A stretch of 41,929 bases of DNA from Pseudomonadota bacterium. GTDB lineage: Bacteria > Pseudomonadota > Alphaproteobacteria > Rhodobacterales > Rhodobacteraceae. Where the stretch lies: NCBI GenBank assembly GCA_021813365.1, contig JAKALB010000009.1:1-41929 (forward strand). Reading direction: 5' to 3'. Position 1 is the first letter of the stretch. Each line of letters opens with the position of its first letter. This document shows, one piece after another, positions 1 to 10,379 of the stretch. Under the pieces are notes generated by a model, which had not been told where the DNA came from, searched no databases, and saw only the letters and a list, made by a program, of their open reading frames with translations. A program made the position numbers and the translations under genes.

Positions 1-1
1 G

Positions 2-1540
2 ATTTCGAAGAAATCGCACTGGGCCTTTCTTAACTTCAATGACGCTCCACCGAAGCTTGAAAACTCACGGAGTTGGGTGTGCGAGGAATTTGTTAGGTCA
101 ATAATACAAGAGGGTGCTCCTATTGACTTGGATGATGCTCATGATCAAGAGCGAATATTTTCATCCAATATTAAGAACCGCCAGGCTTACTACGACCGAA
201 TGAACAAGATCGGGGATCGTCGCGGGGATTTAGAGTTTGCTAGAGATATAGAGCAATGGCGGTATGACCCGGAAATTTCAACCATCGCGATATCTCGATA
301 TCTGCACGGGGATCGTGGCGAGAACCTAGTAGTCGTATTCGACAACGTTGACCGTCGAAGCGCTTCGGAACAACTTGAGTGCTTTCAGTTGGCTCTGTGG
401 TTTATGGCGAAGACTCGCGCCCTGGTGATTCTGGCGATGCGAGATGTTACCTATGAATTGCATCGGAACGAGCCGCCGCTTGACACCTACAAGTCAGGAA
501 CGGTATTCCATATTAGTCCACCGCGCTTTATTGATGTTGTGAGGCGCCGCCTTGAGTTAAGCCTTGAGGCAATGGAGAAGGAAGCCCCCGCGCAGGTCAG
601 CTATTCAATCGCTTCTGGCGCGCAAATCCGGTATGATGGTAAGCAGGCGTCCCAATTTCTTCGAACTGTCTATAGTGAAATCTTTGAGCGCCCTCGGAAT
701 ATTGCTCGGGTCATTGAAGCGCTTGCAGCACGTAATGTGCGGCAGTCACTTGACATGTTCATGAGCATACTGACTTCTGGTCACATGCCCGAAGATGTTT
801 TGACCAAGATTGCACTTGGCCACGAGTTCGCTGGCCTGAATGAGTTTACCCTCATCAAAATACTCATGCGAGGTGATGGACGGTTTTTCACTGATACCAG
901 TGGCTTCATTGCAAACATCTTCTACTGTGACAGTACATGGAAGAGGCCGTCTAATTTTATTTGTGTGGAGATTCTCTTCTGGCTTATTGGAATGCGGAAG
1001 GTCAAGGGCGATAATGGACACATGGGATACTTTTCGGTGTCTAGAATTTGCAACGAGCTTGAGAAGCTCGGCTTTGTCGCAGATGATGTCTATAGCGCAT
1101 GTCGTTTCTTGGTTAGCAAATCCCTTATTGAACCTGATACCTTGTCGCAGGCCGATCTGGATCGCGCGGATTGTATAAAAGTAACTGCGTCTGGTTTTAT
1201 TCATATGCGGGTACTAAGCGAGAGACTTGAGTACCTTTCTTCGATTCTTCCTACAACTGCGATTAACTCGACTCCATTTGCTTCACAGATTTTCGACAGC
1301 ATGACGACAGAGAATCGCACCGGGTTCTTGACCGTTGCGCGGAGAGTGACACTTGTCACAGAGTTGGCCTCTTATCTTTCGGAGCAGCGGGCGGTTCTGA
1401 TGCGGCATGATGGTTACGCTGCTCTGGATAAATCAGGTGCAAGTTATATCATCGGCCACATAGCTTCAGCAATAGACAGCGCGACCCAAGCGAGTAAAGT
1501 GAGCCGCCCTGTGCAACTTGATTTTCTCGACACGATTTAG
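2..1540 (+). CDS. P-loop ATPase-like protein with C-terminal winged helix, 5' truncated by window edge
   Basis: The reading frame is open from base 2, so the start and any Walker A motif lie outside the window; the GTG at 77 is an internal codon rather than a convincing start. Numbering from that GTG, a Walker B-like segment LVVVFDNVD (residues 84-92) is followed by a sensor-1-like strand VILAMRD (117-123) and by RPRNIARVIEAL (205-216), which resembles a lid or sensor-2 helix. Residues about 315-365 look like a winged helix. This order fits STAND/AAA-type ATPases, a class common in defence islands and mobile elements. Base composition is AT-richer than the core genome to the right. No specific family is recognised, and function is not assigned beyond a probable NTP-driven switch or helicase-loader-like ATPase. 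Confidence 0.7.
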   Translation: MSKKSHWAFLNFNDAPPKLENSRSWVCEEFVRSIIQEGAPIDLDDAHDQERIFSSNIKNRQAYYDRMNKIGDRRGDLEFARDIEQWRYDPEISTIAISRYLHGDRGENLVVVFDNVDRRSASEQLECFQLALWFMAKTRALVILAMRDVTYELHRNEPPLDTYKSGTVFHISPPRFIDVVRRRLELSLEAMEKEAPAQVSYSIASGAQIRYDGKQASQFLRTVYSEIFERPRNIARVIEALAARNVRQSLDMFMSILTSGHMPEDVLTKIALGHEFAGLNEFTLIKILMRGDGRFFTDTSGFIANIFYCDSTWKRPSNFICVEILFWLIGMRKVKGDNGHMGYFSVSRICNELEKLGFVADDVYSACRFLVSKSLIEPDTLSQADLDRADCIKVTASGFIHMRVLSERLEYLSSILPTTAINSTPFASQIFDSMTTENRTGFLTVARRVTLVTELASYLSEQRAVLMRHDGYAALDKSGASYIIGHIASAIDSATQASKVSRPVQLDFLDTI

Positions 1541-1827: not shown

Positions 1828-1840
1828 AAGGTGAGTGACT

Positions 1841-2404
1841 ATGATCATAGGATACGCACGTACTTCCACGCTTGAACAGACGGCAGGGCTTGAGGCGCAA
1901 GAGCGTGACCTCAAAGCGGCAGGGTGTGAACGGCTGTACATCGAACAGGTGTCATCGGTTGATGTGGTCGCCCGTGAGAAGCTGGCGGAGGCGTTGGACT
2001 TCATTCGCGAGGGCGATGTCTTGGTCGTAACCAAGCTCGACCGTTTGGCCCGATCTGTGCAGCACCTCTTGGAGGTACTGGCCCACCTGACAAAGAAGGG
2101 TGCGAGCCTGCGCATCGTTGGCCTGGGGATCGACACAGCAACACCAACTGGAAAGCTGATGTTGACGATCCTGGGGAGCATTGCAGAGTTTGAACGTGGC
2201 ATCATGCTAGAACGGCAAAGGGAGGGCATTGCAAAGGCTCAAGCTGCGGGGCGCTACAAGGGACGCAAGCCGACAGCGAAGGGGAAGGCGCAAGAAGTGA
2301 TGGCCCTACAGGGCGAAGGAGTGCGTCCAACTGACATCGCTGCACGCCTTGGCATCAGCCGCGCCTCGGTCCACCGGATTCTCTCCACCGATACCCGGCC
2401 ATAA
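1841..2404 (+). CDS. Small serine recombinase (resolvase/invertase family)
   Basis: This is a 187-residue site-specific recombinase that would cut and rejoin DNA through a serine-DNA intermediate. The N-terminal catalytic domain (1-120) starts IIGYARTST with the nucleophile at Ser9, and carries the LDRLARS motif (66-72) and the AEFERGIMLERQREG helix E region (115-129). After GRYKGRK comes a Hin-type helix-turn-helix (about 162-182, GISRASVHRIL). The ATG at 1841 is chosen because AAAGGTGAG lies just upstream; a GTG at 1835 in the same frame would add two residues and obscure that site. Length matches Tn3/Hin-type enzymes, not large serine integrases. Two 34-bp dyads directly upstream are its likely binding site. 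It may resolve the element or switch a DNA segment; the substrate is unknown. Confidence 0.93.
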   Translation: MIIGYARTSTLEQTAGLEAQERDLKAAGCERLYIEQVSSVDVVAREKLAEALDFIREGDVLVVTKLDRLARSVQHLLEVLAHLTKKGASLRIVGLGIDTATPTGKLMLTILGSIAEFERGIMLERQREGIAKAQAAGRYKGRKPTAKGKAQEVMALQGEGVRPTDIAARLGISRASVHRILSTDTRP

Positions 2405-2611: not shown

Positions 2612-4015
2612 TCAGTCCCGACCGGGCCATTTGAGCTCCCTTTCAGACATACCGTCAAGTATATCTTCAATGTCATAATCTGCATTCTCTGGAGATTCAG
2701 CGCCTAAGGACTCGACTGGGTCCTTCCTTTTTGAATAACTCATTACTCCAGTGATTTTCCTGACTACATCTTGCATCAAATCAGGCAGTTCATCATCTAG
2801 CGTTTTGAAAGTTATGAAGCTGTCATGTATTGGCAAGCAGGGATAACCCATGTCAGCAAACCTCAAGAGCACCGCCTCGGCGATGTCTGAATCTCTCCGC
2901 TGAAGTCGTCCTCCTGCACCAGAGAGGAAATGGCTAGCGATTGGTTCGTGTTCCTTGAGTATCCCATCTATGAAGCGGTCCCAGGATATGCCAGCCGTGC
3001 GCTGATCAAATTCCTCAACCATGCCCAGAACCGGCCTACGTCGCGCATTCAGCATTACGTTGAATGCCTCTTTCGTGGCCCCTCTTAGTGCCTCTCCATG
3101 CGGTGCCGTATATGGGTCGTAGTCTGGAGGCAACTCTATCCCAATTTCAGCGTACAATAACATAGCGTGTATGTGCGAGAAATCATGTTCGCAGGTTTCT
3201 TTGTGATCAATGGTTATGTATTTCCGAAACTCTTTCTTGAAGTTGATCCACCAAGCCCCATAAAATCGTCCTCCTGTGCTGAAGTCGATGCTGTTGAATA
3301 CTCGGTGAAGGCGAGTTGCATCTAGATCAGTCTTCAATCTTTCATGTTTCGCGTCAGCAAGTGTTAAGAACGATTCCTTCCTCTTGTCGAATTCGACTTG
3401 GAAATTGCTGAAGTCTATATCAAAGAAGTATTTGGAGTTGTTACTATTTATTCTCTCTAGATTTTCTCGCCACTGTCTGGTTTGCTCCGTTTCGATGAAT
3501 GCTACTCTGCGCTTTTCCTTCTTTCCCTCCTGGTCAAGCATTACTCGTATCGGATCATTGGTGTCAAAGATGCTTGTCCGGTGCCCTCTCAGGACATCCA
3601 TCTTCCTGTGCAACTTCGCTGTCGCCCTAACCCGTGAAGTCTGACCGCTTGCTTCAGACCCCAGGGACACCGACTCAACGTATCCACAACGGACTAAACC
3701 TTCCAATGCCTGTAGGAAGGATCGCGCGGTCACGAACGGGGGATAGTTCGGGTTCCCGGTAAGTGCGGTGTTCCCTCGGTGAACGCCGATTACTTGCGAA
3801 GGGTCGAACTCGTAGGCATGGAAGAGATCAAGGCAGATGGCACGGAGGCACTGTCTGAAGCGCAAGCCTTCGCTGGGAGACCTCGCCCTTCGTCCCTCTA
3901 CGCGCTCAACATCCTCTTGGATTTCGTCCAGCCTATCAATAACCTTTGGCGCAAGCCTTCCTCTTGGCTCCCGCCACATATTGATGTGCCTGCTGGGCAA
4001 GTTCACCCAAGTCAA
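2612..4015 (-). CDS. Polymerase-like protein: probable winged helix plus family A/T7-like polymerase palm motifs
   Basis: Unknown 467-residue protein. Residues about 52-140 look like a winged helix. The C-terminal half carries motifs in the order of single-subunit polymerases: motif A EHDFSHIHAMLLY with Asp278 (compare DYSQIE in Pol I); motif B RGATKEAFNVMLNA (311-324), with the R-x3-K spacing of Pol I R754/K758 and T7 RNA polymerase R627/K631 (RSVTKRSVMTLAYG); then LQRRDSDIAEAV (371-382), like the Pol I segment before motif C; and motif C PIHDSF with Asp398, near-identical to T7 IHDSF. A GGRFYGAWW motif (248-256) precedes motif A. Motifs A and C are only 120 residues apart, so the fingers would be very small. 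It begins at TTG 4015, overlapping the integrase stop by 4 bp (TTGA), with GGTAGGG upstream; ATG at residue 13 is an alternative. Polymerase activity is inferred. Confidence 0.75.
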   Translation of the reverse strand: MTWVNLPSRHINMWREPRGRLAPKVIDRLDEIQEDVERVEGRRARSPSEGLRFRQCLRAICLDLFHAYEFDPSQVIGVHRGNTALTGNPNYPPFVTARSFLQALEGLVRCGYVESVSLGSEASGQTSRVRATAKLHRKMDVLRGHRTSIFDTNDPIRVMLDQEGKKEKRRVAFIETEQTRQWRENLERINSNNSKYFFDIDFSNFQVEFDKRKESFLTLADAKHERLKTDLDATRLHRVFNSIDFSTGGRFYGAWWINFKKEFRKYITIDHKETCEHDFSHIHAMLLYAEIGIELPPDYDPYTAPHGEALRGATKEAFNVMLNARRRPVLGMVEEFDQRTAGISWDRFIDGILKEHEPIASHFLSGAGGRLQRRDSDIAEAVLLRFADMGYPCLPIHDSFITFKTLDDELPDLMQDVVRKITGVMSYSKRKDPVESLGAESPENADYDIEDILDGMSERELKWPGRD

Positions 4016-5742
4016 TTGGCCGACCCTACCTTTGTTGCCTTAGGTCGCTCCACTGTGGCGACGTCCTCCAATGCGACATTGAACTTTTCGATTGCTTCTT
4101 GGAGTTGGGCGACCTTGTAGCTTTCACTGAAGTAGTTCTTCATTGTGACGCCTTCCCGCTCATGGCCAACAAGCGTTTGAACAAGCGGCAGTTGAACACC
4201 AGCCTGATGCAACCGCGTCACCATCGTATGGCGAAGTTCATGGAAGACGGCATGTTTGTCCTTCAGGCCCAACGCAGGAAGAAAGGTCACGTTGAACCAG
4301 CGACTTTGATTCTTTGTGTACCCGTGTTTGGTGCTGTAGGTAAAGTCTGGGAACAAGCGCACATTCCCGGTGAACGATGCCCGCTCCTTGAAGTACTCCA
4401 AGAACCCAAGTTTGATCAGCGCAGAATGAACTGGGATCAAGCGCCTTGCTGCAGCAGTTTTCAGGCTCTTGCGTCCATCTGGGTCGATGTCGTTGATGCT
4501 GAAGCACCAGATACCGTCATGTTGCTGAACATCTGCAACAAGCAGGGAACAAATCTCACTCAGCCGCGCTCCGGTGAAAATGCCTATCAGGCTTGCCCAT
4601 TTGTTGCCTGCCTTTCTGACGACCTTGCTATCCGGCCTTGTCAACTCTCGGACCATTGCCGCAATCGCTTCCGGTGAGAATGCCGTGCGCACTTGGTCTG
4701 GCACTGAGGCCCCGCGACCGGCATTCACATTCATGCCTTCAAAGAGGACCTCCTTCGCGAAGCCGTTCTTTGCTGCCCATGCTGTAAAGGTATGGAAGGT
4801 GCCCAAGTAGTCATTCAGCGTCCTGGCGCTCAGGGTGGGCAGGCCTTTCAATTTCGCTGCTTCCCGCAACGATAGGTCGCGCACCGCTGGGTGCTTGTTT
4901 TTGTTAGCAGGCAGGTCGAACAGGACGGATTTTACTTCCTGTGCATCTTTCTTTGTAATCGCGTACATTGGCGTGGTGGCACCCAAGAGTTCCGTCAGCA
5001 CCGCAAGCATCGCCTCCCGCTTTGCATGTGTTCCGCCGACCCATGCACCGACCCTGACTTGCTCCCTGATGTAGAGATCGACAACGTCTGAAAGCGCCTC
5101 GCCCGGCTTGTCTTCCTGGATCGGCCCAAGGAGGCCCGGAGCGGCCTCAGGAGACGCCTTGGGCGTTTCCGGCTGTCCGAGTAAGTCAAAGCGATTGAGG
5201 GCGTCGTAGCGGCCTTCCACGGCCTTCAGAACGGCAGCCGTCCCGATGTGCAGCAGCTTCAGAATTTCGGCCCGGTGCGCCTCCACCTCGGCAAGTGCAA
5301 CGCCAGAACTTTCCGCGAACCTGGCAAGTTGGGCGTCGGCTGCATTCTTGCCCAGGCGCGTCCATAGTGCATCGGACCCTTCTTCAAGGATCGTGTGAAC
5401 TTCTGCAAACTTTTCAGGCGTGTTCGATGGTGGCGGGCCGCTAGCGTTCATCCGCTCGATACGGCGCGCAAGGTCTTCCCGCAGAAGCTTCTGTACGTGA
5501 GAGTGGATTTCTTCGTAACGCATGGACCCTTCAGGCAGTTGCAACCGGAGACTTTCACCCAACGATGCAAGGTGCCGTGCCAAAACACCAGCTTGTTTGG
5601 GGCATCGCGTTCCTAGGGAAAGGCGGACCCAACTGCGGCGCTTCACGTCGCGATGGAGGGGCCAACGAAAGTAGAAGATTCCGTGACGCGACGGATAGAC
5701 GTAAGAGGCAAGCCGCATTTCTGTGTCACACCCTTGTGTCAC
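4012..5742 (-). CDS. Tyrosine recombinase / phage-type integrase
   Basis: Site-specific recombinase expected to integrate and excise the element at the adjacent tRNA gene. From the GTG at 5742 it is 576 residues. The N-terminus (YVYPSRHGIFYFRWPLHRDV) resembles the small domain found at the start of many proteobacterial integrases; a SAM-like core-binding domain lies around 215-330; the catalytic domain carries Arg393 (TGARLSEI), Lys428 as candidate, H501-x2-R504 (HELRH), His527 (LVGHE) and the nucleophile Tyr537 (NYF), a complete set. ATG at 5718 is an equally plausible start, since the conserved domain begins there and two short palindromes lie between the candidates. It is read away from the tRNA and overlaps the next gene, the polymerase-like protein, by 4 bp, so the two are probably co-translated. 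Confidence 0.95.
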   Translation of the reverse strand: MTQGCDTEMRLASYVYPSRHGIFYFRWPLHRDVKRRSWVRLSLGTRCPKQAGVLARHLASLGESLRLQLPEGSMRYEEIHSHVQKLLREDLARRIERMNASGPPPSNTPEKFAEVHTILEEGSDALWTRLGKNAADAQLARFAESSGVALAEVEAHRAEILKLLHIGTAAVLKAVEGRYDALNRFDLLGQPETPKASPEAAPGLLGPIQEDKPGEALSDVVDLYIREQVRVGAWVGGTHAKREAMLAVLTELLGATTPMYAITKKDAQEVKSVLFDLPANKNKHPAVRDLSLREAAKLKGLPTLSARTLNDYLGTFHTFTAWAAKNGFAKEVLFEGMNVNAGRGASVPDQVRTAFSPEAIAAMVRELTRPDSKVVRKAGNKWASLIGIFTGARLSEICSLLVADVQQHDGIWCFSINDIDPDGRKSLKTAAARRLIPVHSALIKLGFLEYFKERASFTGNVRLFPDFTYSTKHGYTKNQSRWFNVTFLPALGLKDKHAVFHELRHTMVTRLHQAGVQLPLVQTLVGHEREGVTMKNYFSESYKVAQLQEAIEKFNVALEDVATVERPKATKVGSAN

Positions 5743-5744
5743 AC
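5722..5744. repeat. Two tandem TGTGTCACAC repeats at the integrase 5' end
   Basis: TGTGTCACAC occurs at 5722-5731 and again at 5735-5744, a 13-bp period. Each copy holds the odd palindrome GTGTCACAC. They sit between the two candidate integrase starts (5718 and 5742) and about 40 bp from the tRNA 3' end, where arm-type integrase sites or an excisionase/repressor operator would be expected. The role is inferred from position only. Confidence 0.5.
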
Positions 5745-5785: not shown

Positions 5786-5812
5786 TGGTGGCGAGGGGGG
5801 GACTCGAACCCC
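5786..5812. other. Predicted element attachment-site side (tRNA 3' end)
   Basis: The T-loop to CCA segment of tRNA-Met directly borders the integrase gene. Tyrosine recombinases of islands typically recombine inside the tRNA 3' half and rebuild it with their own copy. No second copy of this segment is seen in the window, so the partner repeat should lie left of base 1. The exact core cannot be defined from one end. Confidence 0.5.
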
Positions 5813-5862
5813 CGACCCTGCGATTATGAGTCGCATGCTCTAACCAACTGAGCTACCTAGCC
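5786..5862 (-). tRNA. tRNA-Met (anticodon CAT), CCA encoded
   Basis: On the minus strand a full cloverleaf can be drawn: acceptor GGCTAGG/CCTCGCC, D arm GCTC...GAGC, anticodon arm TGCGA-CTCATAA-TCGCA with anticodon CAT, T arm GGGGG-TTCGAGT-CCCCC, discriminator A (5789) and encoded CCA (5786-5788). The D-arm and 5' sequence are close to the E. coli elongator tRNA-Met pattern, so elongator Met is more likely than initiator (which would lack the A-U first-pair features and have the three G-C anticodon-stem pairs). The fourth acceptor pair is a T-C mismatch. The 3' end faces the integrase 43 bp away, making this the likely attachment gene of the element to its left. Confidence 0.93.
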
Positions 5863-8071: not shown

Positions 8072-8120
8072 TTTCATCTTGCTGCAAATATCCCGGGGGT
8101 CCGGGGGCTGGCCCCCGGCC
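8072..8120 (-). repeat. Dispersed intergenic hairpin element, copy A
   Basis: Read on the minus strand, a GC hairpin (GGGGGCCAGCCCCC-like) is followed by CCCCGGGATATTTGCAGCAAGATGAAA. Two related copies occur at 10501-10552 and 18712-18757. This copy lies in the gap between the hydantoinase gene and selD, ending about 57 bp before the selD start. No function is known to me; the hairpin could act as a terminator. Confidence 0.7.
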
Positions 8121-8177
8121 TCCCTCTCCGGCGCTACCCCCGGCGACATCCCGGCATCCCTGACCCCTGGCCCATCC

Positions 8178-10379
8178 ATGCAAACTCTCGCCTATCCCCC
8201 CGTTTCCGACCTGGTGCTGATCGGCGGCGGCCACACCCATGCGCTGGTCCTGCGGATGCTGGCGATGCAACCTCTGCCCGGCCTGCGGCTGACCGTCATC
8301 AACCCCGAACCCGCCGCGCCCTATTCCGGCATGCTTCCCGGCCATGTCGCGGGCCATTATGCGCGGGAAGATCTGATGATCGATCTACTGCGCCTGGGCC
8401 GGGCCGCCGGGGCGCGGGTGATCCTCGACCGCGTGACCGGCATCGACCGCCAGGCGCAGCAGATCCATCTCGCCTCGGGGCGCGCGCCGCTCGGCTATGA
8501 TCTGGCCAGCATCGACATCGGGATCACCTCGGAACTGCCCGACCTGCCCGGCTTTGCCCGGCACACCATCGCGGCCAAACCGCTGGGCCCCTATCTTGCC
8601 GCCTGGAATGCGCTACTCGCCCGCGACCTGCCCAATCCCCGGATCGCCGTTCTGGGCGCCGGTGTCGGCGGAGTGGAACTGGCCTTTGCCTCGGCCCACC
8701 GCCTGCGCGCGCTGGGGCGCGATCCGCGGGTCACCGTGATCTGCCGCGCGGGCGAGGCTCTGCCCGGCGTTTCGCCCGCCGCCCGCCGCAGCCTTCTGGC
8801 CGAGGCCGCGGCGCAGGGCATTGACCTGCGCTGCGGCGCGGGCGCGGTGGCGGCCGAACCCGGCGCCTTCCTTCTGGCCGACGGCGCGCGGGTCGAGGCC
8901 GATTTCCTGCTGGTCGTGGCCGGGGCCCGTCCGCAAGCCTGGCTGGCCGATACCGGCCTCACCCTGCACGAAGGCTTCATCGCCGTCTCGCCCAGCCTGC
9001 AAAGCTCGGATCCGCTGATCTTCGCGGTGGGCGATTGCGCGCATCTGACAGAAACGCCGCGCCCCAAGGCGGGTGTCTTTGCCGTGCGCGAGGCACCGAT
9101 CCTGCTGGCCAACCTGCGCGCCAGGCTGTCCGGCCGGGGCAGGCTGACCGAATACCGCCCGCAAAAGGATTACCTGAAGCTGATCTCTCTGGGGGCCAGA
9201 CGCGCCCTGGCTGATCGAACCGGTCTGGCAACCGGCGGCGCCTGGATCTGGCGCTGGAAGGACCGGATCGACCGTGGCTTCATGGCGATGTTCCATGACC
9301 TCGCCATGCCCGAGATGAAACCGCCCATCCCCGAAATCGCGGTCTTGGGCCTGGACGCGCTGCTCTCGGGTCGCCCGCTCTGCGGTGGCTGCGGGGCCAA
9401 GGTGGGCCCGGGCGGGCTGACGGCCCTGGCGCAGAGCCTGCCAGAGCCGCGCCGCGCCGACGTTCTGGCCGGGCGCGGCGACGATGCCGCGCAACTGGCA
9501 GCCGGAGCGGGACTGGTTCAGGTGATTTCGACCGATCACCTGCGGCAACTTTGCCTGGACGAAGGCCAGATGGCCACGATCGCCGCTGTCCACGCCCTGG
9601 GCGACATCTGGGCGATGGGTGCGACACCGCAGGTTGCGCTGGCGCAGATCGTGTTGCCGCAAATGGGCGAGCGCCTGCAGCGCCGTTCGCTGCACGCGAT
9701 CATGGCCGCGGCCCAGGCGGTCTTTGCCGCCGCCGGGGCCGATATTGTCGGCGGGCACACCACGATGGGGGCCGAGCTGATCATCGGCTTCACCGTCACC
9801 GGACTGACCGCGCGCCCGCTGACCAAATCCGGTGCCCGGCCAGGTGATGCGCTGATCCTGACCAAGCCGCTGGGCACAGGCACGATCCTTGCCGCCGAAA
9901 TGCTCGGCGCGCGCCTGCCGGGGTTCGTTCTGGGCGAGGCCGTGGCTGCGGCCCTGCGCTCGATGGCCCGCCCACTGGCACAGGACTCAGCCATTCTGGC
10001 CCCCCTGGCCCATGCGATGACCGATGTCACCGGCTTTGGTCTGGTCGGGCACCTGCTGGAGATGCTGGAAGCTTCTGACCTGGCCGCCGACCTGGAGCTT
10101 GCGGCCCTGCCTCTGTTGCCGGGCGCGGCGGCGCTTGCTGCCCTTGGTCACGGCTCCAGCCTGGCGTCGGCCAACCGCGCCGCCGCCCTGGGCCGGCTGC
10201 ACGCACCGCAAGGCGCTGTGACCGACTTGCTGTTCGATCCGCAGACCGGCGGCGGCCTGCTGGCCGCACTGCCTGCCGACCGGGCGAAGGACGCCGTGGC
10301 CGCCTTGGCCGAGGCAGGCATACCCGGCGCGATCATCGGCCGTCTGCGGCCCGGCAGCCCCGAAGTGGTGGCCCGCTGA
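8178..10379 (+). CDS. selD: Fusion of FAD-dependent NAD(P)H dehydrogenase-like domain and selenide, water dikinase
   Basis: A 733-residue fusion. Residues 1-385 are an NDH-2-like pyridine nucleotide-disulfide oxidoreductase domain: FAD-binding LVLIGGGHTHAL (13-24), a second dinucleotide fold IAVLGAGVGGVELA (156-169) and the FAD motif IFAVGDCAHL (281-290). Residues about 395-733 are SelD, which makes selenophosphate from selenide and ATP: C402-GGC405-GAK408 gives the active-site Cys and Lys, followed by GRGDDAA, TDVTGFGLVGHL and the PQTGGGLL motif. The ATG at 8178 is chosen because the dinucleotide fold starts right after it; the frame is open further upstream but crosses an intergenic hairpin element. 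The flavin domain may supply reduced selenium or couple redox state to SelD. mnmH lies convergently downstream and would use the product. Confidence 0.96.
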   Translation: MQTLAYPPVSDLVLIGGGHTHALVLRMLAMQPLPGLRLTVINPEPAAPYSGMLPGHVAGHYAREDLMIDLLRLGRAAGARVILDRVTGIDRQAQQIHLASGRAPLGYDLASIDIGITSELPDLPGFARHTIAAKPLGPYLAAWNALLARDLPNPRIAVLGAGVGGVELAFASAHRLRALGRDPRVTVICRAGEALPGVSPAARRSLLAEAAAQGIDLRCGAGAVAAEPGAFLLADGARVEADFLLVVAGARPQAWLADTGLTLHEGFIAVSPSLQSSDPLIFAVGDCAHLTETPRPKAGVFAVREAPILLANLRARLSGRGRLTEYRPQKDYLKLISLGARRALADRTGLATGGAWIWRWKDRIDRGFMAMFHDLAMPEMKPPIPEIAVLGLDALLSGRPLCGGCGAKVGPGGLTALAQSLPEPRRADVLAGRGDDAAQLAAGAGLVQVISTDHLRQLCLDEGQMATIAAVHALGDIWAMGATPQVALAQIVLPQMGERLQRRSLHAIMAAAQAVFAAAGADIVGGHTTMGAELIIGFTVTGLTARPLTKSGARPGDALILTKPLGTGTILAAEMLGARLPGFVLGEAVAAALRSMARPLAQDSAILAPLAHAMTDVTGFGLVGHLLEMLEASDLAADLELAALPLLPGAAALAALGHGSSLASANRAAALGRLHAPQGAVTDLLFDPQTGGGLLAALPADRAKDAVAALAEAGIPGAIIGRLRPGSPEVVAR

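Follow-up and report, generated by a model that had tools for sequence, protein, structure and literature searches.

A compact TV-Pol-type polymerase encoded beside the integrase of a small tRNA-Met element, with a putative role in priming or copying the free element

The window analyzed here, a 41,929-nucleotide stretch of DNA from a Rhodobacteraceae bacterium, encodes a minimal TV-Pol-type polymerase that we interpret as a core gene of an approximately 10.2-kb element inserted at a tRNA-Met gene, where it would prime or copy the element while the latter is free; we place the probability of this reading at about 0.6. That the protein is a polymerase of the TV-Pol type, within the Pol I/T7 RNA polymerase superfamily, appears almost certain, while its putative activity in priming or replicating the element is favored by a narrower measure. 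The computed evidence comprises the predicted fold, catalytic residues that do not vary, the pairing with a tyrosine integrase that targets tRNA genes, a convergent serine resolvase in the closest relatives, and att repeats. The TV-Pol kind is already known; what is added here is a delimited integrative island with its tRNA att repeats and the linkage between polymerase and integrase.

The polymerase gene (2612..4015, minus strand) is a 467-aa open reading frame with a TTG start, which shares the nucleotides TTGA with the stop of the integrase gene (a 4-nt overlap). A first-pass annotation, made from the sequence alone, had described its product as an unrecognized protein with a compact family A/T7-like palm; all the motif peptides it quoted occur in this frame in the order it gave, as does the spacing of 120 residues between D278 of motif A and D398 of motif C. 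'Unrecognized' holds with respect to domain collections: the best Pfam match has an E-value of 0.24, with nothing significant and no exonuclease or nuclease domain; NCBIfam returned no match at E ≤ 1; and PHROG 4756, which matches residues 147-424 (E = 2e-34), is labeled 'unknown function'. The Pfam RNA_pol model likewise gave no match to the window protein at E ≤ 1, and weakly matched 3 of 34 relatives (best E = 0.012), while a sequence search against solved structures found nothing credible (best E = 0.32). The epithet does not hold with respect to the literature, as TV-Pol was predicted in 2008 by Iyer, Abhiman and Aravind (PMC2579912).

The correspondence to Pol I emerges in a profile-profile alignment to the bacterial enzyme, for which the motifs were not supplied (E = 0.0018, HH probability 15, with a template profile of three sequences). 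This pairs D278 with the motif A Asp (DYSQIE), D398 with the Asp of VHDE, R311 and K315 with the R...K of the O-helix, and Q372 with the Gln of the Q-helix. It also reproduces the earlier placement of H283 on the steric-gate Glu. By this alignment and in Pol I numbering, the equivalents of E710 and F762 are H283 and N319, N323 occupies the O-helix Tyr position, and S399 that of the Glu in VHDE. Given His for the steric-gate Glu, Asn for the O-helix Tyr and HDS in motif C, the choice of sugar is not deducible from these residues. The polymerase profile matched the T7-like RNA polymerase of phage KASIA in motif C only (E = 0.028), and its comparison with a phage family A polymerase was not meaningful (E = 0.45).

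The first scans, with the single protein as query, returned no matches; a one-genome-per-species scan with a six-row alignment returned 298 stretches, of which 233 were confirmed as relatives and the best 80, from 79 loci, were kept. The closest four among these best 80 of 233 come from Ruegeria, Rhodobacter, another Rhodobacteraceae bacterium and Pelagivirga, at 43-47% identity. Counting the source genome, relatives occur in 9 of 101 related genomes and in 24 of 385 genomes of the class, so that this subset is not rare; the 15 other genomes of the same genus gave no polymerase match. Relatives were further found in 33 phage records, 3 plasmid records and 10 viral contigs.

Three alignments were drawn from this material. 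From 49 ORF hits, those of at least 330 aa, less L015 and duplicates, made a set of 42 distinct homologous ORFs, and a 34-row alignment (A1) was made from the same hits after removal of fragments, of duplicated and short ORFs and of some distant ones. The 81-row alignment (A3) holds the window protein, 79 of 89 loci and the second ORF of L163; it leaves out L114, L161 and L173 (cut by contig ends), L124, L133 and L145 (split ORFs), L166 and L167 (copies of L113 and L149), L175 (in which no ORF was found) and L121 (taken as like L115). As a separate point, L113 and L163 each carry two different polymerase gene copies a few kilobases apart. The motif residues are conserved beyond what chance would give. 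In the 42-ORF set D278 is present in 42/42, D398 in 41/41 (one gap), R311 in 41/42, K315 in 40/42 and H397 in 39/41, and the invariant columns of the 81-row alignment are G249, R250, R264, D278, Y302, K315, H397, D398 and M414, with R311 (80/81) and D300 (79/81) nearly so. Free variation of Asp278 and Asp398, the observation that the first-pass annotation had named as speaking against its reading, is thus the opposite of what is seen. In the H283 column, 67 rows have His, 7 Asn, 6 Gln and 1 Met, and none has Glu; Asn fills the N323 column in 76 of 81 rows and Ser the S399 column (the HDS of motif C) in 75.

The AlphaFold model built with the 81-row alignment has a pLDDT of 90.1 and a pTM of 0.89, and points to the right-hand palm that the annotation had proposed to look for. 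In a Foldseek search against the PDB, the best 50 of 393 matches (E ≤ 10) are all family A DNA polymerases or fragments thereof, led by the apicoplast DNA polymerase and Taq fragments (E = 1.7e-4, probability 1.00), and 38 of the matches reach E ≤ 0.001. Among the matches listed, TM-scores range from 0.23 to 0.35, low values in our view because the model lacks an exonuclease region and has a different N-terminal domain. Against the BFVD collection of viral models, the first 11 rows have E-values of 3.8e-20 to 1.6e-14, including a homologue from Aeromonas phage 4L372D, with virophage helicase/primase/polymerase proteins matching more weakly (Qinghai Lake, 1.5e-3; Zamilon, 1.0e-2). In the predicted structure, thumb helices at 177-193 and 202-215 and a beta-hairpin (strands 237-240 and 248-252) bearing G249-R250 would precede a palm with D278 and D398, with R311-x3-K315 in the fingers followed by the Q372 helix. 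A winged helix ahead of the palm, also anticipated by the annotation, is suggested by the helix-strand pattern at model residues 47-131 and by a profile match of the N-terminal region to the PadR-like regulator 1xma (E = 0.005, profile positions 67-171). Fold and invariant residues agree with a minimal family A/T7-like enzyme of predicted polymerase activity.

The published account of TV-Pol defines the family by four structural features in proteins of 400-600 aa without a nuclease domain (PMC2579912), and each feature has a counterpart here. The antiparallel two-helix thumb ahead of the palm would correspond to the two helices predicted in the model; the hairpin with an absolutely conserved Arg to that bearing R250 (81/81); the RRM-like palm with two conserved Asp residues to the family A fold match with D278 and D398 (81/81 each); and the fingers with a conserved Asp and an RxxxK motif to D300, R311 and K315, the last found in 81/81 rows. 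The setting agrees as well: the subset of TV-Pols with an N-terminal domain adjoins genes for lambda-type integrases, gamma-delta resolvases or transposases, and the species list includes many alphaproteobacteria, Loktanella, Paracoccus and Roseovarius among them (PMC2579912); the window polymerase too lies in a mobile element with an integrase and a resolvase and is free of a nuclease domain. The differences are that the N-terminal domain is described there as all-helical, whereas model and PadR-like profile point to a winged helix in the window protein, and that the present subset now has mapped tRNA att repeats and element ends. A D5-like helicase is linked to part of the TV-Pol family and was not found here among the 32 of 60 element ORFs scanned, though the integrase/resolvase subset is not defined by one.

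A direct sequence link between the window polymerase and a published TV-Pol is weak. Phage Ma-LMM01 is named as a TV-Pol host in PMC2579912, whose text leaves the gene unspecified. With the 42-row profile, MAP_030, which lies beside transposase genes, ranked first of the 181 Ma-LMM01 ORFs at a weak E-value of 0.0089, and hhalign aligned it at motif A, K315 and N323, again weakly (E = 0.0027, probability 11); the A1 profile, and the A3 profile in hmmsearch, missed it.

The genomic context delimits the element. The tyrosine integrase gene (4012..5742, minus strand; 576 aa; Pfam Phage_integrase, 8e-13; PHROG 1 integrase, 2e-32) starts 44 bp from the 3' end of a tRNA-Met gene (5786..5862, minus strand), its integration target. 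The 17 bp at the tRNA 3' end (5786..5802, minus strand) form one att copy, with an exact twin at 4437-4453 of contig C130 of the same genome, the sole other genomic place at ≤1 mismatch. Two GTGTCACA 8-mers 13 bp apart (5723..5743, plus strand) are probably integrase arm sites; TGTGACAC pairs with the 13-bp spacing occur at both element ends, that of C130 (at 4355 and 4368) lying on the opposite strand inside the far att end with identical spacing. Convergent with the polymerase is a gene for a small serine resolvase/invertase (1835..2404, plus strand; 189 aa; Pfam Resolvase, 9e-41; PHROG 125), around which a search for res sites found weak repeats only. The cargo includes a P-loop protein of PHROG 14719, whose C-terminal 512 aa lie at 1..1540 (plus strand, 5' end open) and whose N-terminal 311 aa lie, in frame with the window part, at C130:3-935 (L191, minus strand). 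From the exact 18-bp overlap between the starts of C130 and the window and from the reading frame, a gene of about 817 aa running across both, we infer that the two contigs join; the two parts of the protein match PHROG 14719 positions 26-321 and 328-784. It carries an HSDR_N match at its N-terminus (E = 1.6e-5) and, by eye, Walker A-like and FDNVD motifs; PADLOC gave no match to the window part, and an unnamed defense ATPase is a possible identity. Relatives of this protein also occur in polymerase loci L114 and L125.

The element of about 10.2 kb thus reads tRNA-Met/att, tyrosine integrase, polymerase, convergent serine resolvase, ATPase-like protein, a type ISP restriction-modification enzyme (PF18135, E = 1.5e-73), att. 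GC content is 0.45-0.61 inside the element versus 0.68-0.72 past the tRNA, and that of C130 is 0.48-0.63 before the far att copy versus 0.61-0.71 past it. Counting against the proposed element, the far att match is a single one of 17 nt: the 26-nt tRNA tail has no second genomic place with up to 3 mismatches. A search of genomes of the same genus found no demonstrable empty site; sequence resembling the tRNA and hyuA region is kept in several of them, but the flank past the far att end is not conserved.

Comparable elements recur in relatives. Across 88 polymerase loci, many on short contigs and with two duplicate records among them, an integrase relative is present in 36 and a resolvase relative in 22. 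The four closest relatives (L087-L090) keep the order tRNA, integrase, polymerase, with other ORFs intervening in L087, and in all four a resolvase relative follows the polymerase on the opposite strand; L088, L089 and L090 present the series tRNA, integrase, polymerase, convergent resolvase. Polymerase and integrase distances are also correlated (Mantel r = 0.746, with 0 of 2000 permutations as high) over 27 elements, host relatedness being uncontrolled, in a set restricted to loci with an integrase of more than 450 aa and a polymerase of more than 400 aa. Both observations bear out the coupling to an integrase that had been read from the window alone. Loci L087-L165 contain 34 integrase hits with E < 1e-20, of which 22 have a tRNA at -50 to 400 bp; the other 12 comprise 2 that overlap a tRNA further, 3 second pieces of split integrases and 7 with no tRNA in the available stretch. 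In all 27 integrase hits with a tRNA, the nearest one lies on the integrase strand, and the target types include Met, Ala, Tyr, Val, Cys, Ser, Phe and Leu.

All six loci that were extended contain an exact repeat of the tRNA end, 17-25 bp long and 6.1-19.7 kb distant. The integrase and polymerase are present in all six of these elements and a resolvase in five, in differing gene orders and strands, with polymerase and integrase convergent in G450. The cargo varies: the L089 element of about 10 kb couples integrase, polymerase and resolvase to a type I restriction system, while the cargo is not restriction-like in the Sneathiella locus and is unassigned in G450. Among 32 scanned of the 60 ORFs in the six elements, Pfam found no D5-type helicase; the helicases present are HsdR subunits and one UvrD-like protein from the outer region of the Sneathiella locus.

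Other relatives reside in plasmid-like and phage settings. A 21,261-bp contig (G165:C14; L210, L081) consists entirely of about 2.4 tandem copies of an approximately 8.9-kb unit, with long repeat pieces 99.2-99.9% identical, that encodes ParA, RepA_C, a D12-class methylase, a serine resolvase and a polymerase relative. It is probably an over-assembled circular plasmid, though possibly a tandem array, and it may be a free form of a related element. Its 108-bp tandem repeats, tried as iterons, sit within a Sel1-repeat gene, and that reading was dropped. Separately, in 9,096 of the 21,444 bp of an IMG/VR contig (L171) we observed head-to-tail repeats of 4,659 and 3,347 bp carrying a piece of a tyrosine recombinase and the polymerase, which has three copies in the record. 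The phage records with relatives are 89-146 kb long. All five phage relatives scanned match PHROG 4756 (E = 2e-56 or better) and hence belong to the same family as the window polymerase; but the five phage loci examined lack window-integrase relatives near the polymerase, and L045 has a weak resolvase match. A DNA_pol_A match lies elsewhere in each of these five records (E = 4.9e-19 to 1.2e-4; two over the curated cut-off and one confined to a 243-aa frame), so that the phage relative is probably an extra enzyme beside others. Shewanella phage KASIA (L046) combines a T7-like RNA polymerase, a below-cut-off DNA_pol_A match and a TV-Pol-type polymerase.

We propose that the integrase would excise the element as a circle, that the winged helix would recruit the polymerase to element DNA, that the polymerase would prime and/or copy the element while it is free, that the serine resolvase would split multimers, and that the integrase would then re-insert the element. 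For TV-Pol, both a combined primase and DNA polymerase activity and replicative transposition were proposed in PMC2579912, and a precedent is CcPol-MP of SCCmec, a primase-polymerase that primes and extends DNA (Bebel 2020, PMC7581432), which supports the replication role. CcPol-MP and the window polymerase are alike in placing a family A core on a recombinase-borne island as a proposed replication module. They differ in that CcPol is closer to Pol I, with a partial 3'-5' exonuclease region, whereas the window protein has no Pfam exonuclease match. CcPol also pairs with an OB-fold partner and a D5-type helicase, whereas the neighbors of the window polymerase are an integrase and a resolvase. 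Moreover, the retention by CcPol of the sugar-gate Glu and Phe (E710/F762 equivalents; PMC7581432), where the window polymerase has H283/N319, counts against the proposed role, as does the lack of a D5-type helicase among the 32 of 60 element ORFs scanned, other TV-Pol replication modules being paired with one. In the literature we found, the CcPols of staphylococcal SCC elements are the only assayed TV-Pols; Rice 2023 (PMC10061031) adds the OB-fold partner of these PolA-SSB primases, and PMC11348598 applies the name TV-Pol to a PolA of small viruses. The stronger notion that the polymerase is the sole replication protein of such replicons is weakened by the DNA_pol_A matches in 5/5 phage records and by the RepA on G165:C14, which by itself means that the polymerase there is not the sole replication protein.

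An unlikely alternative is that the polymerase uses NTPs and makes RNA. It would explain why H283 stands in place of the Pol I Glu in a column that is mostly His and never Glu, why motif C reads HDS with Ser in most rows, and why the few weak Pfam polymerase matches among the 34 relatives are to RNA_pol. T7-like RNA polymerases share the superfamily and HDS motif C with the window protein, and the fingers of T7 RNA polymerase carry an R...K motif as the window polymerase does. The core of the window protein is far shorter than that of T7-like RNA polymerases, with 120 residues from motif A to motif C, and its profile match to the one RNA polymerase compared is weak and confined to the motif C region. 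DNA polymerases also rank first in Foldseek, the profile aligns over a greater length to Pol I than to the KASIA enzyme, and residue swaps alone leave the sugar choice unfixed. Less likely still is gap repair at integration, whereby the polymerase fills gaps or extends ends arising from recombination or single-strand conjugative entry and no free circle is replicated; the TTGA overlap of the two genes, their correlated distances and the lack of a D5-type helicase in the 32 scanned ORFs would suit it, but tyrosine integrases join DNA without leaving gaps, the family extends to large phage records in which the loci examined have no window-integrase relative nearby, and one relative lies on the RepA/ParA contig. 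A catalytically idle structural or regulatory protein on a palm scaffold is very improbable: in a comparable setting, one or both Asp residues are missing from five RRM-only proteins (PMC10061031), but here both metal-binding Asp and K315 persist in 81/81 rows and R311 in 80. The terminal transferase and defense roles offered by the first-pass annotation found no support for the polymerase, the restriction genes being separate cargo. In the elements examined this cargo differs, being type I, type ISP or of another sort, whereas polymerase and integrase remain together, which makes defense not a first choice.

Returning to the priming or copying of the free element, a more specific version is a tentative one: a one-chain primase-polymerase in which the fused winged helix, instead of an OB-fold partner, would hold the template, and the His/Asn/HDS site would allow de novo starts and tolerate ribonucleotides, making it the replication or priming enzyme of widespread tRNA-inserted islands and an extant link between the DNA polymerases and RNA polymerases of the superfamily. 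If this is true, it would serve a class of islands of which several carry restriction systems and in which no D5-type helicase was found. With its much reduced family A core, its altered nucleotide gate and its location in small elements whose ends are defined, this subset allows a direct test both of whether such integrative islands replicate once excised and of whether the ancestral family A enzyme could begin strands unaided.

Two side observations complete the picture. In the Sneathiella locus (L180) the tRNA-Ser end recurs twice more, at 10.1 and 19.7 kb, and the outer part of the locus encodes its own DUF6538/integrase-like protein, the UvrD-like helicase and a radical SAM protein; the extra tRNA-Ser ends and the additional integrase-like protein suggest that perhaps two elements lie side by side. 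Elsewhere in the window, a 766-aa ORF at 8079-10379 resembles, by eye, a fusion of an FAD oxidoreductase with a selenophosphate synthetase.
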